This document shows positions 26,089-32,911 of a stretch of 32,911 nt of DNA, piece by piece (the first letter of the stretch is position 1; each line of letters starts with the position of its first letter). The stretch is taken from the IMG/VR virus record IMGVR_UViG_3300027881_000046, positions 1-32,911 of that record; one strand, written 5' to 3'. The DNA comes from a virus. The translations under genes were made by a program, and so were the position numbers. Below the pieces are notes generated by a model. It had not been told where the DNA came from. It saw nothing but the letters and a program-made list of their open reading frames with translations, and did no database searches.

Positions 26089-26273
26089 TAGCCAACCTCC
26101 ATTTCCTTACTCTTCTCAAACTCTTCGATATCGTCTTCCTTATAAAGAATCTTGCCGCCCATTTTGACATACTTCGGGCCTTTCCCTTGGTTGCGCCAAT
26201 TCGCAAGCGTGCCAGGCGTTAATATGCCCTTCCAGCGGGCACACACTTCATCCGGCGTTAAGAATTTAGGCAT
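26088..26273 (-). CDS. Small helix-turn-helix DNA-binding protein (HTH_17 / excisionase-like)
   Basis: The protein has 61 residues from the ATG at 26273 (MPKFLTPDEVCARWKGILTP). It follows the MerR-like/excisionase plan: LTPDEVCARW is the first helix, TPGTLANWRNQGKGPKYVKM is the recognition part plus wing, and ILYKEDDIEEFEKSK is the last helix. I chose this start because AAAGGGG precedes it by 7 nt; a start at 26297 has no such site. It overlaps the ATPase 3' end by 16 nt. It could act as a regulator or recombination directionality factor; no integrase is visible here. Confidence 0.8.
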   Translation of the reverse strand: MPKFLTPDEVCARWKGILTPGTLANWRNQGKGPKYVKMGGKILYKEDDIEEFEKSKEMEVG

Positions 26274-27925
26274 TCGGTTTCCCCTTTCTCTACCCAATAA
26301 GTTGCGCCGCCTATTTTTGAAAGGTCTGGTGCGTCTTCCTTACCTGGTACACTCATGAAAAATATAACATCTATTCCGGAACCATTCAGCAAAGTCAGAA
26401 ATTGATTTTTTCCGACCTTGCCGACAATGATATCCGCTTCGTCGATGATAGTTAAAACAGCATTTTCAATCTTTGCCATAGTTATTTGCATGATAGCCTT
26501 GGCTTTATATTGTTCGGATTTGCTGCAAAGATTTACCAAACGATGGCCGAAAGTAATGTCATAGTTGTTGTCAAGCCTGACTTCCGGCCATCCCGCAAGC
26601 TCTGATAATTCGGCAAGCATTTTATTGAATGGCTGCAACGCTTCAAGCAGTTTTGTTTTTCGGATCCCTGCCGGTGCAAGAATGTCTTGTATGGCTTTGT
26701 TTGATTGAATGCCCGTATTTAATTCTTGCGCCCGCGTGGTTGCCTTAAATGCATCCCTTTTTAATACGGCGGCATCGCGCTTAGTTTGCCATTCCTCAAG
26801 GTTTTTTGTCCATTTTTTGCCGTCCGCTTTGGCGTTGTCTTTTAAACGGGTTTCTGCGTTCGTTGCCTGCAATAATACCGTTTCCTCCGCCCTTAATTCA
26901 GCCCGTAATTTATCCGTGCGGTCGAGGCAGGTTTTGATTTTTTCCTGAATTTCCGCATTGCTTTTTATGGCGGCGGCGTTTGCGGCATCGTCTTTTTTTG
27001 ATTCTTGGATAATGCCGTCAACAACAGTCAAGGCCAAACCGCAGCCGGGGCACCCTTGTTCCTTTCCTTCGTCTATGGGTTTTAATTTGACTTTTAATCC
27101 TTCGTATTCTTCCACGGCAAAATTGATCCGCTTCTCATATTCAACAATCATGACTTCGCTTTGTGATTTCGATGCCGCCGATTTTTCAAGCTCCGCCTTT
27201 TCCATTTCGGACAATACCTTTGCCGCCGTTCCGGTTGCAACTTCGTTATCGCAAACAGCAACATTGTTTGCGAAGGCGTATATGTCTTGTTTTTCCATGC
27301 CGGGTATCCATCCCGCGTGCTGCCAATTCTCTGCTTTACGGCTTCCGTATTCTTCGCCGGTTACTTCCTGCCATTGTCCTTTTAATAGCGTGCCTTTTTC
27401 TCCGGTCTTGGCGTGGGAAGTATCGTAACCATTTATTTTGACGGACTCCGCTATTTTGTCGATTAATTCCGCGTTGAAGTTTTCGGCTTTCAACACCTTT
27501 TTTAAATCGGCTTCTGTTGGTTTGGAATCAATATAATCGGAAAGCGGCGCCGGTCGGTTTTTCCGGTCCAGGTCAATAATGCTTTCCATGCCCGCCGCGA
27601 ATGTTGATATGTTTTTCGGCGGGTTGCCTTCGTTTTTGTACAGGCATTCCGGCCATATAACACCGACCTTATATATTGGCGTTCCATCGTCTGCCGGTGG
27701 GCCGTCAATTTGAATGCCGCCGGTTTTCGCGCCTTCCCTGACAAGTTGCTTTGTCTGCTTTTTTAATAGTCCCTTGACAGGTGACGTATTGCCGGTGAGG
27801 GCGCAGCCCATAGCCTGCGCAATACTTGACTTGCCGTTGCCGTTTTTACCGAATACGCCGGTCAAAGGTTTGGGCTCGATGTCGGCGGAGAATATGCCGC
27901 GAAAATTACGTGTTTTTGATATCAT
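26258..27925 (-). CDS. Rad50/SbcC/RecF-like ATPase with CxxC hook
   Basis: The protein has 555 residues. An N-terminal nucleotide-binding half has Walker A GKNGNGKS (26-33). The middle is Glu/Lys/Ala-rich, predicted coiled coil (about 235-285 and 310-405) with CPGC (292-295) between the arms, as in the zinc hook of Rad50. The C-terminal half has CSKSEQYKA (467-475) in place of the LSGGE signature, and Walker B VLTIIDEAD (490-498). The coiled arms are much shorter than in SbcC. It probably works on DNA ends with the nuclease and RecT encoded upstream. No SbcD/Mre11 partner is seen in the window. AAAGGA precedes the ATG on the minus strand. Confidence 0.88.
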   Translation of the reverse strand: MISKTRNFRGIFSADIEPKPLTGVFGKNGNGKSSIAQAMGCALTGNTSPVKGLLKKQTKQLVREGAKTGGIQIDGPPADDGTPIYKVGVIWPECLYKNEGNPPKNISTFAAGMESIIDLDRKNRPAPLSDYIDSKPTEADLKKVLKAENFNAELIDKIAESVKINGYDTSHAKTGEKGTLLKGQWQEVTGEEYGSRKAENWQHAGWIPGMEKQDIYAFANNVAVCDNEVATGTAAKVLSEMEKAELEKSAASKSQSEVMIVEYEKRINFAVEEYEGLKVKLKPIDEGKEQGCPGCGLALTVVDGIIQESKKDDAANAAAIKSNAEIQEKIKTCLDRTDKLRAELRAEETVLLQATNAETRLKDNAKADGKKWTKNLEEWQTKRDAAVLKRDAFKATTRAQELNTGIQSNKAIQDILAPAGIRKTKLLEALQPFNKMLAELSELAGWPEVRLDNNYDITFGHRLVNLCSKSEQYKAKAIMQITMAKIENAVLTIIDEADIIVGKVGKNQFLTLLNGSGIDVIFFMSVPGKEDAPDLSKIGGATYWVEKGETECLNS

Positions 27926-27989
27926 TTTTTAATTTCCTTTCTGTAATAGATTTTTCAAGTATTTTTTGGGTGATGGAAAGCTGGCATTA

Positions 27990-28178
27990 TTAATTTAGTA
28001 CCTTTCCGTAAATTTCATTATAAACTTGCTCTTGCAGGTCTTTTTTGATGACATCTACATTGATGTCCGACAATTCAGAAATCTCTTGGCGTATTTCTAT
28101 CCTGACTCCAGCTCTTAACAAAACCTTTCCGTTTGGTTTCTTCATTTCTTGCACTGAAATATCATTTATGTCTATCAT
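27990..28178 (-). CDS. Small hypothetical protein
   Basis: The protein has 62 residues: MIDINDISVQEMKKPNGKVL, then RAGVRIEIRQEISELSDINV and a helix (KKDLQEQVYNEIYGKVL). It is soluble, with a beta-hairpin-like first half and a helical end. AAGGAG lies 9 nt before the ATG on the minus strand. It stands between RecT and the ATPase, separated by short gaps, so it is part of the recombination operon. No family is recognised. Confidence 0.7.
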   Translation of the reverse strand: MIDINDISVQEMKKPNGKVLLRAGVRIEIRQEISELSDINVDVIKKDLQEQVYNEIYGKVLN

Positions 28179-28222
28179 TTTTTTGGTCTCCTTTTTTTAT
28201 ATAAGATGTCCATTTATGGAAT

Positions 28223-29173
28223 TCAGAACAAATCCAATTTATTTTCATTGGGTGCGGTTGCCGGTTTCAATTCTGTTGCCGGTGCTTCCTTCGCGGTTGC
28301 CGGTTTCGATTCTGCCGCCGGTCCAGAAGTCCTTGCCCGGAAGCCAACCTTCGGGTTTTCTTCCGTTTGCAACGGCGGTTCGGTTTTATCTTTTTTTTCT
28401 TCCTTCACATTAACATTCTCAACCGCTTTGGATTTCGATTTGCTTTCAGGTTTTGGCGCTTTAGGTTCAGCCAAATCCGGCGACTGTACAGGCGTTTCAA
28501 ATTCAAAACCCGACGAATCATTATCGTTAGAAAGCGCCGTGTCCAAATCCGGTGACGAAGGTAAATATTTGAACAACCGGCGGATAGGAATTTTTCTATA
28601 CATTTCAGTTTCAAAAGCAGCCCACGCGCCTTTCCTTGCCATCCTGGAAGTTGCCCGGACTTTGTTCAGATCATCCATATTCATGAATTCATAAACATTC
28701 TCACCAGTTTCAAGTATAGCGATAGCATACGCGCCAATCATTGCGCCGCGTGCGCCGGTAATAATTGGCGCGTGTTTCATATATGATTCAGTACCATACG
28801 AGATTTCAAATTTATCATTTTCATAAACAATATGACTTTCTATTTTTTTCACTTTTCCGGTTCGCCTGACCAATTCCATCAATCCGCGATAACCGGGCAT
28901 GAATTTGGCCTCATTCGCAAACTTTACAATATACGCATGACCTTTTGCCGGTGTGAAATCCAGCCCTATTTCAGCCGCTTGGCACAGTGTGGATATTATG
29001 CTTTTTTGTGTGCATTCCTTCAAATCTGGATTTGCGTTTAATGCCAGAATTGCAGATTTTAAAAACCTGTCTTTATTAATATGATTTGGCAACAAGCTTT
29101 TAAATTGTGTTGCACCTGATTCCACTATCGTTGCCATTTTTTTTGATTCCTGTACTGCTACATCTTTTCCCAT
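28223..29173 (-). CDS. recT: RecT-family single-strand annealing protein with long disordered tail
   Basis: The protein has 316 residues. Residues about 20-200 are RecT: HINKDRFLKSAILALNANPD, IISTLCQAAEIGLDFTPAKG, KFMPGYRGLMELVRRTGKVK, then VRATSRMARKGAWAAFETEM and YRKIPIRRLFKYLP. It anneals single strands made by the nuclease. The tail (about 215-316) is Pro/Ala/Lys/Glu/Ser-rich, with an imperfect repeat AESKPATAKEAPATELKPAT, and ends NENKLDLF. That end resembles the beta-clamp binding motif QL.LF. AAAGGCGG precedes the ATG; 12 nt separate it from the nuclease gene. Confidence 0.93.
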   Translation of the reverse strand: MGKDVAVQESKKMATIVESGATQFKSLLPNHINKDRFLKSAILALNANPDLKECTQKSIISTLCQAAEIGLDFTPAKGHAYIVKFANEAKFMPGYRGLMELVRRTGKVKKIESHIVYENDKFEISYGTESYMKHAPIITGARGAMIGAYAIAILETGENVYEFMNMDDLNKVRATSRMARKGAWAAFETEMYRKIPIRRLFKYLPSSPDLDTALSNDNDSSGFEFETPVQSPDLAEPKAPKPESKSKSKAVENVNVKEEKKDKTEPPLQTEENPKVGFRARTSGPAAESKPATAKEAPATELKPATAPNENKLDLF

Positions 29174-29185
29174 TTTTTCCGCCTT

Positions 29186-29986
29186 TCATTTATTCGCGCC
29201 AACTTCACAAAATTCCGTGCCGTATGCGCTGCAATATTTAGGGCTGCAAAGCATACTTTTAGGATTAGCGGCAAAACTCCACGGATCCCCGGATTCCATA
29301 AAATCAGCAACATTTTTTTTAATTAATTTAATTACGTTGAATGCGTGTTTTTCTGAATTGTAAACATTGTATTCATGAACAACCGCGCCGGGGTAATTCT
29401 TCCGAAGCGGTGTCCGTGGCAGAAATTCACATTTTAATTTTTTTACCACTTCATGGCCTTGACTCCTTTTTAAAAGGGAATATCCACCACATTGCGCGGA
29501 ATATATGGATACCTTCCCGGTTTTTACATCTGTTATTTCTTCGAGGTTTGAAAAATCACAATGCCCGGTGACTTCATCGGTGCCAAAAACAGCTTTCAAA
29601 GATTCCTCTGCCTTGGCGTTATTCAGGTTTTTTTTAGGGAATATTTCATAATAGTATGACCGGGTTAATATCTGGATTTGTTTTTCAGCCTCATTATTGT
29701 TTGCCGTTATATCGTCGAATTGTACGCCTTCATAAACTTCTTGCCGGTATTCCTGTATTCCGGTATCCGTGACATTTGCCAGACTTGGGGTAATGCCGAT
29801 GTTTATAGCTTCATTCAAAAGCATTTCCGCGCCCTTGTGCGTTCCGGTGCCTACACACGCGGCCACACCTTTGCAATCTTCCGGGATATCGAAGCCTGAC
29901 GCGCTTATATGGCTTTTGAGTAGCTTTGCAGCCGTCCGCCGGGGGCAATCGCAATACATCGGGAGATATGAACAGCGTATTTTCAT
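29186..29986 (-). CDS. PD-(D/E)XK exonuclease, Cas4/RecB-like with probable Fe-S cluster
   Basis: The protein has 266 residues. It has CDCPRR (12-17), a GTGTHKGAE helix with H50 and E54, the metal-binding D144 (GHCDF), D153-x-K155 (ITDVKTG) and Q165 (SAQCGGY), which together form the nuclease active site. C14 with C247, C252 and C260 (MLCSPKYCSAYGTEFC) resembles the four cysteines that hold a 4Fe-4S cluster in Cas4 and AddB-like nucleases. It would resect DNA ends for RecT. It is the first gene of the leftward operon. No Shine-Dalgarno sequence precedes its ATG and the predicted leader is very short, so it may be translated from a nearly leaderless mRNA. Confidence 0.88.
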   Translation of the reverse strand: MKIRCSYLPMYCDCPRRTAAKLLKSHISASGFDIPEDCKGVAACVGTGTHKGAEMLLNEAINIGITPSLANVTDTGIQEYRQEVYEGVQFDDITANNNEAEKQIQILTRSYYYEIFPKKNLNNAKAEESLKAVFGTDEVTGHCDFSNLEEITDVKTGKVSIYSAQCGGYSLLKRSQGHEVVKKLKCEFLPRTPLRKNYPGAVVHEYNVYNSEKHAFNVIKLIKKNVADFMESGDPWSFAANPKSMLCSPKYCSAYGTEFCEVGANK

Positions 29987-30995: not shown

Positions 30996-31100
30996 ACAGA
31001 AAAGCAATGTCGTTATTTTTTAAAGCTTCAGCTTTTATTGCCGGTGTGCTGGTGGGTATTGCTATATATGTAACATTAATACAGGAGTGGCCGGTATGAA
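30971..31100 (+). repeat. 26-bp perfect direct repeat flanking a mini-gene
   Basis: An identical 26-bp segment lies at 30971-30996 and 31075-31100. Each copy holds the codons LIQEWPV, an AGGAG ribosome site, the stop TGA and the ATG of the next gene in ATGA overlap. The DNA between is the body of a 35-residue membrane peptide. The arrangement looks like an insertion or duplication that kept the translational coupling intact. Confidence 0.95.
30992..31099 (+). CDS. 35-residue single-pass membrane peptide
   Basis: ATG at 30992 overlaps the DUF5131 stop (ATGA) and has AGGAG 7-8 nt upstream. The peptide starts MNRKAMSLFFKASAFIAGVL and continues with VGIAIYVTLIQEWPV. Residues about 7-29 form one membrane helix with a basic N-terminus. 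The last seven residues equal the end of DUF5131 because of the 26-bp duplication. The stop overlaps the MazG start in the same ATGA pattern. It is too short for most gene callers. The function is unknown. Confidence 0.7.
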   Translation: MNRKAMSLFFKASAFIAGVLVGIAIYVTLIQEWPV

Positions 31101-31425
31101 ACAAAACTTAAACGAATTAGCTTTTGAAATTCACAAAACAGCAATAGAAAAAGGATGGTGGAAAGGCAATCGCAACACGGGCGAGCTGCTATGCTTAATA
31201 CACAGCGAGGTCAGTGAAGCCTTGGAAGATTACCGAAATGATAAGATGCAACCATACTTGGACGATAAAGGTAAGCCGTGCGGTTTCCCTTCTGAATTGG
31301 CCGATATTATCATTAGAGTGCTCGACCTGTCTGCAAGCATGGGGCTTAATATTCAACATCAAGTATTGCAAAAAATGAAATACAACACTACCCGGACACA
31401 TAGGCATGGCGGCAAAAAATGTTAA
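31096..31425 (+). CDS. MazG-like nucleoside triphosphate pyrophosphohydrolase
   Basis: The protein has 109 residues from ATG 31096. It has the MazG metal motif: E38 and E41 in IHSEVSEALEDY, and E67 and D70 in SELADIIIRVLDL, plus YNTTRTHRHGGKKC at the end, a pattern typical of phage MazG-like proteins. These enzymes hydrolyse NTPs or dNTPs to monophosphates; in phages they may alter nucleotide or alarmone pools. AGGAG lies 8 nt upstream in the duplicated cassette. A GTG at 31087 is possible but lies inside the ribosome site. Confidence 0.88.
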   Translation: MKQNLNELAFEIHKTAIEKGWWKGNRNTGELLCLIHSEVSEALEDYRNDKMQPYLDDKGKPCGFPSELADIIIRVLDLSASMGLNIQHQVLQKMKYNTTRTHRHGGKKC

Positions 31426-32427: not shown

Positions 32428-32911
32428 GTGAAAGCGTTTAAAGGATTTAACCAAGATATGACATGTAGGGGGTTTCAGTATAAGGAAGGAGAGGTATATT
32501 CTACAAAAGAAAAGCCTAAATGTTGCACCCAAAACGGCTTCCATTCTTGCGAAAACCCGATAGATATTTTCGGGTATTACCCGCCAGGAAGCAGTGAATT
32601 TCACGAAGTAGAAATTGACGGGAATGTTGACCGTACAGGTGAAGATTCAAAGATCGCATCTTCGACGATAAAAATAGGGGCAGAAATTTCTATAAAATCA
32701 ATTATTGAGGCCGGAATATCTTTTGTTTTTGAAAAATGTAAATGGTCTAAAAAAAATAATACTACAGGGGATCGGTCAGGCTCACAGGCTACAGGGGATC
32801 AGTCAGGCTCACAGGCTACAGGGGATCGGTCAGGCTCACAGGCTACAGGGTATCAGTCAGGCTCACAGGCTACAGGGTATCGGTCAGGCTCACAGGCTAC
32901 AGGGGATCAGT
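32428..32911 (+). CDS. DUF7666-like protein with 9-residue repeats, cut by the window end
   Basis: GTG at 32428 has AAAGGGAGGG (32413-32422) upstream, and the frame is open to the last base (161 codons). Residues 1-95 (VKAFKGFNQDMTCRGFQYKE, EKPKCCTQNGFHSCENPIDI, SSEFHEVEIDGNVDRTGEDS) follow the DUF7666 pattern, with a FHSCENP motif common in these phage proteins. A basic Lys/Trp stretch (EKCKWSKKNN) leads to five full and one partial copies of TG[DY][RQ]SGSQA. In the family such repeats can run for dozens of copies and probably form a beta-solenoid. The function is unknown. The 3' end lies outside the window. Confidence 0.8.
   Translation, partial: MKAFKGFNQDMTCRGFQYKEGEVYSTKEKPKCCTQNGFHSCENPIDIFGYYPPGSSEFHEVEIDGNVDRTGEDSKIASSTIKIGAEISIKSIIEAGISFVFEKCKWSKKNNTTGDRSGSQATGDQSGSQATGDRSGSQATGYQSGSQATGYRSGSQATGDQ
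32764..32911 (+). repeat. 27-bp tandem coding repeats
   Basis: Five complete units start at 32764, 32791, 32818, 32845 and 32872, and a sixth begins at 32899 and is cut by the window end. Units are identical except codon 3 (GAT or TAT) and codon 4 (CGG or CAG). Codon 4 alternates strictly Arg, Gln, Arg, Gln, Arg, Gln. They lie end to end without spacers. Confidence 0.97.

Follow-up and report, generated by a model that had tools for sequence, protein, structure and literature searches.

Here we describe a phage gene, cut by the end of IMG/VR record IMGVR_UViG_3300027881_000046, that encodes a DUF7666 domain followed by an array of near-identical nine-residue units varying at just two adjacent residues, and we show that across relatives in phages and prophages of many phyla this residue pair carries a large excess of replacement change. 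The window, meaning the whole stretch of DNA analyzed, is the entire record of 32,911 bases, and the record stops where the window ends. Tentatively, and with somewhat less than even confidence, we interpret the gene product as an early accessory intracellular protein in which a head resembling ADP-ribosyltransferases (ARTs) is joined to a hypervariable recognition rod, the units of which are converted into one another under diversifying selection.

The 5' part of the gene, coding for 161 residues, lies at 32428..32911 on the plus strand, as do all of its parts given below; it has a GTG start and no stop before the contig end. Residues 1-161 are covered by a match to phrog_4433 (E 3.7e-56), and residues 1-94 (32428..32709) belong to PF24703 (DUF7666), scoring 120.4 bits relative to a gathering cut-off of 27 bits. 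The end of a helix and a linker, placed from the translation and an AlphaFold model, occupy 32710..32763. The array itself, 32764..32911, is composed of 27-bp units encoding TG-v1-v2-SGSQA and was delimited by Tandem Repeats Finder (score 266, 5.4 copies, period 27 bp) and by reading of the units, whose variable pairs (v1-v2) are DR, DQ, DR, YQ, YR and DQ. Full units begin at 32764, 32791, 32818, 32845 and 32872, and a partial unit at 32899-32911 is interrupted by the contig end. The full units are identical outside codons 3 and 4, as claimed in the preliminary description, with the limit that there are five full units and that the sixth is partial. Codon 3 reads GAT, GAT, GAT, TAT, TAT and, in the partial unit, GAT, and codon 4 reads CGG, CAG, CGG, CAG, CGG, CAG; the codon pair of the first unit is at 32770..32775, it recurs each 27 bp, and relatives vary at the same two positions. 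Full-length relatives consist of the DUF7666 domain, the array and a C-terminal domain, and contig L002, which starts within a similar array, continues into this conserved domain, which ends in a motif like DTWYxL..GxFVE. In relatives the array is thus followed by a C-terminal domain, for which the preliminary description had proposed a search; in the window contig, cut within the array, a stop just beyond the end is still conceivable.

A total of 169 sequences were screened for a period of 9, 8 or 5 with no phase presumed, and arrays were found in 129 of them, 104 with period 9 and 25 with period 8, in phages and prophages of many phyla. In 105 of these 129 arrays the two phases with the greatest variation lie side by side, and in 99 they come after a glycine; the remaining 24 arrays are by appearance mostly ties or short arrays. 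In the 113 arrays with at least four units (1026 units; five arrays lacking the G anchor, L027, L038, L061, L068 and L145, were left out), per-site differences are 0.308 at the pair, 0.044 at four-fold backbone sites and 0.014 at other backbone sites, and 61 of the arrays have no backbone difference whatever. Contigs from one source may share ancestry, so these array counts are not fully independent, an effect that is lessened in a non-redundant set of 60 arrays (544 units; L122 and L002 left out). Here the pair differs at 0.281 per site as against 0.030 for four-fold backbone sites, a ratio of 9.3 (bootstrap 5.4-20.7), and the pair is the more variable in all 60. Pairwise codon differences at the pair in this set comprise 27 synonymous and 3253 non-synonymous, although these are not independent because modules are copied. 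There is thus an excess of replacement change at the pair. Only four of the 228 module types that occur two or more times within an array have more than one six-base spelling. Arrays contain a mean of 3.9 module types over 9.1 units, and v1 and v2 are linked, with 437 distinct pairs as against 581 in permutations. The residues are of binding type, v1 being mostly D, Y or N, and v2 mostly R, Y, Q, S, G, C, W, K or N.

Rapid recent turnover, with length and surface differing between phage individuals, had been proposed from the near identity of the window units, and both points are supported by differences between the arrays of close relatives. In an alignment of contigs L016 and L018 covering 5841 bp there is a single mismatch, and a single gap accounts for the 27 bases by which they differ in length. 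The Pseudomonas phages FluPA14 and YA3 share 98.1% identity over 4.3 kb, rising to 100% in the first 300 bp of the domain, and their arrays of 27 and 28 units differ in order. Searching for the Pseudomonas backbone yielded 34 stretches, and in each of the ten cases where two complete genes were at least 98% identical over their first 300 bp the arrays, of 3 to 28 units, differ. In the clearest example, the circular phage-plasmids pHPA0008-2 (62561 bases) and pHPA0271-2 (62563 bases) differ by three substitutions in total, plus two 1-bp insertions or deletions elsewhere, and all three substitutions fall within one variable codon pair, changing DY into YR, the module carried by the unit that follows. 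Complete genes with a recognized array have from 3 to 29 copies.

Structures were predicted with AlphaFold in a first run that used 38 sequences and a second that used 123, the latter being that of the window together with 122 taken from the 140 loci left after filtering. The model of L032, a close full-length relative, has a mean predicted local distance difference test score (pLDDT) of 87.4 and a predicted template modeling score (pTM) of 0.57, and it forms a beta-solenoid, as the preliminary description had anticipated. Each unit contributes one five-residue strand and one four-residue turn, G-v1-v2-S, which would place the variable pair at the tip of the turn. Structural alignment of the rod with VIA ranks RTX beta-rolls first (Z 8.4, root-mean-square deviation (rmsd) 2.9, 113 residues). 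RTX repeats are calcium-binding nonapeptides of the form GGxGxDxUx; the units here are TGxxSGSQA, and a Pfam scan of the window protein reported no RTX family. The likeness to these rolls, which have two strands per coil, suggests that the rod has two edges, so that two faces of a kind remain plausible, but the alternating 18-residue super-repeat from which they had originally been deduced is unsupported (see below). The model of the window DUF7666 domain has a pLDDT of 95.2 and a pTM of 0.86. When it was re-aligned with VIA to 999 chains, 21 of the first 24 rows were by title Arr, KptA/Tpt1, PARPs or ART toxins; the best row has Z 6.7 over 81 residues with an rmsd of 3.9, and the second (Z 6.5) is BC2332, a protein of unknown function. 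The predicted fold of residues 1-94 would thus be like that of ARTs of the Arr and KptA/Tpt1 type.

These features can be accommodated in the following scheme. The gene would be part of the phage early or regulatory region and would be expressed early in the window phage. Its product would combine the ART-like head, a beta-solenoid of eight- or nine-residue units and the conserved C-terminal domain, and in each unit the two adjacent residues at the turn tip would be free to change while the rest is kept nearly identical even at silent sites. Copying of units into one another, by conversion or unequal recombination, would homogenize the backbone, and selection would maintain differing residue pairs. 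The rod could then serve as a modular recognition edge that engages a partner through its ladder of pairs, with the head modifying, perhaps catalytically, or binding whatever the rod engages; if the partner varies between hosts, new module combinations would be favored. A variable host factor such as a defense component seems the most probable partner, in view of the early, accessory position of the gene and the precedent of AcrIF11, which PMC12421852 describes as a phage ART that is an anti-CRISPR (clustered regularly interspaced short palindromic repeats) protein acting on a defense complex. Both are phage accessory proteins, one an ART and the other with an ART-like predicted fold, but a defense target of the DUF7666 protein is a proposal. 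To our knowledge AcrIF11 has no comparable repeat array.

Several observations weigh against this interpretation. A Foldseek search with the DUF7666 domain gave nothing significant (best E 0.36) and the VIA Z scores reach at most 6.7; comparison of DUF7666 by hhalign to 16 Arr and 7 (after trimming, 6) KptA sequences scored at the level of 25 control families, and hmmsearch of the PDB with DUF7666 returned no match. If our mapping is right, the usual first His of ARTs would be an invariant Lys here. Not all arrays change: the closed phage-plasmids CP137943 and CP124671, each with 28 units, show no difference over 6693 bp, those MK511 isolates with a fully covered array (5 of 12) have identical arrays, and the five-residue arrays of Rheinheimera Barba phages are mostly constant in length. 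Short-read polishing may miscall near-identical units, and a PADLOC search gave no match. A sequence link from DUF7666 to Arr or KptA was discarded on the hhalign and PDB results, and because neither Foldseek nor the Arr and KptA profile comparison is supportive we describe the predicted fold as ART-like and do not claim membership of the superfamily.

One alternative is that the head has an ART-like fold without catalysis, and either binds nicotinamide adenine dinucleotide (NAD) or ADP-ribose derivatives or merely anchors the rod. In PMC9503650 the ART active-site triads are given as H-H-h, H-Y-[EDQ] or R-S-E. By strand order K5 would fall at the place of the first His of most ARTs and H39 at the second catalytic place. 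In favor of this alternative, the family would thus have a lysine in place of the usual catalytic His, and PARP13 is among the structural matches. PARP13 is an inactive PARP. However, K5, C13, R14, Q17, H39, C41, Y51 and K75 are nearly invariant in the 123 sequences, as would be expected in an active site, and we regard a non-catalytic head as unlikely, if less so than the alternatives that follow.

It is also conceivable that the array is a neutral variable-number tandem repeat, in which the pair just lacks structural constraint and concerted evolution keeps the backbone uniform. The range of copy numbers agrees with this, and so does the order of the units. In the 77 arrays with at least six consecutive units (L037 and L122 left out) module order shows no departure from randomness at lags 1 to 4, with identity at lags 1 and 2 at the permuted level. 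The Arg/Gln alternation at codon 4, on which the preliminary description had placed weight, is present in all six window units, but its probability by chance is 1 in 32 and strict two-state alternation at this residue occurs in none of the 77 arrays; because unit order is random we attribute it to chance. The 18-residue super-repeat, and with it duplication of unit pairs, does not fit the order of codon 3 (D D D Y Y D) and likewise finds no support in the 77 arrays, and both strict alternation and the super-repeat were rejected as general properties. What makes neutrality distinctly improbable is that silent backbone sites are free as well and yet show some nine times fewer differences, and that the choice of residues at the pair is narrow, with Pro, Leu, Ile and Val nearly absent and His rare.

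Array order and length could in part be artefacts of assembly, since out of 160 contigs 74 stop in the 500 bp that follow the DUF7666 domain, as compared to four that stop in the 500 bp preceding it, and the window itself ends in an array. In phage fLi-Aba03 (L179) undetermined bases (N) stand exactly on variable codons, at gene offsets 480, 588 and 593, as if reads from different units had been merged. The fLi-Aba03 array appears six units shorter than that of fLi-Aba02, a difference that was discarded on account of these bases, and the additional 81 bp (three units) of BR319b relative to other MK511 records was not counted because the ends of that record lie inside the array. However, the same pattern is seen in closed replicons and in ES18, and the pair varies across unrelated backbones, and we give artefact about one chance in ten of explaining these features, even in part.

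The preliminary description had likened the protein to a host-binding or decoy protein, which at the virion surface could alter host range through its repeats. The variable binding-type residues displayed on a rod would suit such a role, but the genomic setting is that of accessory early or regulatory genes and not of virion genes. The ES18 gene (gp53) is placed between an N-like gene and cIII, in Salmonella phage S135 the gene follows antiterminator N, and in a Newport phage-plasmid it lies between a SieB-family gene and Kil. In Acinetobacter phages it is between Xre/CI regulators and an excisionase, and in Pseudomonas phages it is downstream of the CI repressor; in F116-type phages other small genes occupy the same site. 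The commonest neighbors at 159 loci (identities assigned by reading of the sequences, with L037 and L002 left out) are repressor-like genes (24, upstream) and genes for single-stranded DNA-binding protein (15), antirepressor-like (10), HNH (9) and DnaB-like (8) products, and of 154 loci with an open reading frame less than or equal to 600 bp upstream, 126 have the nearest one in the same direction as the gene. In the window the gene is set apart from the tail genes by lysis genes, a RecT-like gene and a MazG-type pyrophosphatase gene (31087-31425). Because the genes of relatives lie in early, lysogeny or replication regions, among recombination genes as well as those above, a virion-surface role is unsupported and very unlikely. 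Least probable of all is directed mutagenesis of the pair, after the manner of diversity-generating retroelements: change is limited to two codons and 2 of 20 records have a reverse transcriptase match, but none was found in the other 18, phage-plasmids and ES18 included (several of these are fragments), His, which A-to-C change would yield, is rare at v1 (6 of 1026), and the single event observed, that between pHPA0008-2 and pHPA0271-2, produced the module of a neighboring unit.

The reading of the rod as a recognition surface invites comparison with transcription activator-like (TAL) effectors, which have helical repeats of about 34 residues with repeat-variable di-residues and bind DNA through a residue-pair code. 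The likeness lies in near-identical units, two adjacent variable residues and a few module types that are shuffled, whereas the units here are of a beta type with a period of 9 or 8 residues (strands in the L032 model), and the likeness is one of layout, with neither an ordered code nor DNA binding implied. A bolder proposal, which we consider rather doubtful, is that a programmable recognition rod is present in phages of many bacterial phyla, as a beta-type, prokaryotic analog of recognition by variable di-residues; its turn tips would bear exchangeable pair modules, which unit conversion re-shuffles more quickly than any other phage site changes, and it would aim an ART-like head at variable partners. 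If true, this would be a modular phage binding scaffold, paired with what may be an enzyme head, that evolves by module copying under strong diversifying selection. It would offer a testable system for the tracking of variable host factors by phages, perhaps a new class of early anti-defense or takeover proteins, and a natural design for customized binding rods, and it would explain many contig breaks and odd annotations of the gene.

Among known families, ES18 gp53 shares the N-terminal domain and the array with the window protein, and relatives also share the C-terminal domain; the PF24703 and phrog_4433 entries attach no function and do not mention the variable pair. A literature search, with most subscription journals outside its reach, found no paper on DUF7666, PF24703 or phrog_4433, and the available text of PMC9305737 is silent on the DUF7666 gene. 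The Pentapeptide_2 proteins of the Barba phages have a DUF7666 head and units, NTG-v1-v2, that vary at the corresponding two places, but they differ in their period of 5 and in the constancy of length noted above; Pentapeptide_2 (PF01469) has no match in the window and is above cut-off only in Barba L007 among six relatives scanned.

A further relative is Escherichia coli YdhT (b1669), which has solenoid units and a C-terminal domain related to those of the phage proteins, but a different N-terminus and diverged units. The YdhT family NF007410 of NCBIfam finds L249 as its best match (E 1.1e-17, 64.5 bits, below the family cut-off of 300 bits) and has no match in the window fragment, and BLASTP of YdhT with FluPA14 gives 1e-16 with the low-complexity filter and composition correction off. 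The ydhT gene is present in 5367 of 5426 genomes, and is full length in 59 of 60 among the matches listed. Since YdhT has the same rod with diverged units, hypervariability is not a necessary property of the rod. The gene (L261 2748-3560) is chromosomal and uncharacterized, and lies beside ydhU, ydhX, ydhW, ydhV and ydhY. A near search for the ES18-type gene in E. coli with L005 2609-4123 matched, among the 60 matches listed, only the first 132 bases, which are outside the gene, and a distant search of E. coli genomes with the gene start gave no match.

Relatives of the gene were collected from 171 phage records, 36 plasmid records, at least 500 stretches of IMG/VR (80 kept) and 118 stretches of GTDB genomes (80 kept), the last from Clostridia, Proteobacteria, Bacteroidales, Actinobacteria and others. 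In a few the array is minimal or lacking: L130, L105, L106 and L125 have one or two units and L171 is without a recognizable unit. The gene is rare in bacterial genomes, with one match each in 2 of 292 relatives of one Pseudomonas (the query genome included) and in 4 of 299 genomes of the Anaerovorax phylum (query included; 3 over the cut-off). Salmonella record CP148888 (L254) and similar Salmonella records of 5.6-5.9 kb are small circular plasmids with ParA, an antitermination gene and a short DUF7666 gene, and 18 of the 36 matching plasmid records belong to this size class. DUF7666-named structures are also present among BFVD matches in giant viruses, such as Hyperionvirus and Sylvanvirus.

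The window phage is a contractile-tailed phage, represented by a fragment with genes for terminase, portal, major head protein, sheath, tape measure, baseplate and amidase. No phages closely related in DNA to window positions 8000-32911 were found, and comparison of the window backbone DNA to other IMG/VR contigs gave no matches. A minus-strand block at 26258-29986, between the lysis genes and the DUF7666 region, contains SbcC-like and RecT-like genes and one unknown gene. Names given to the DUF7666 gene in database records include ADP-ribosyltransferase, c-type lectin precursor, flagellar hook-length control protein and ATPase, the records with such divergent names being L004 (fLi-Aba02), MH370364 (S107), KT630648 (SEN22), L012, L175 and MG707188 (TC7). 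In the record of Vibrio phage 1.185.O (MG592551; L010 3357-3574) the DUF7666 repeat array bears the label CRISPR spacers 1-4, an erroneous annotation, since the repeat is one of a protein.
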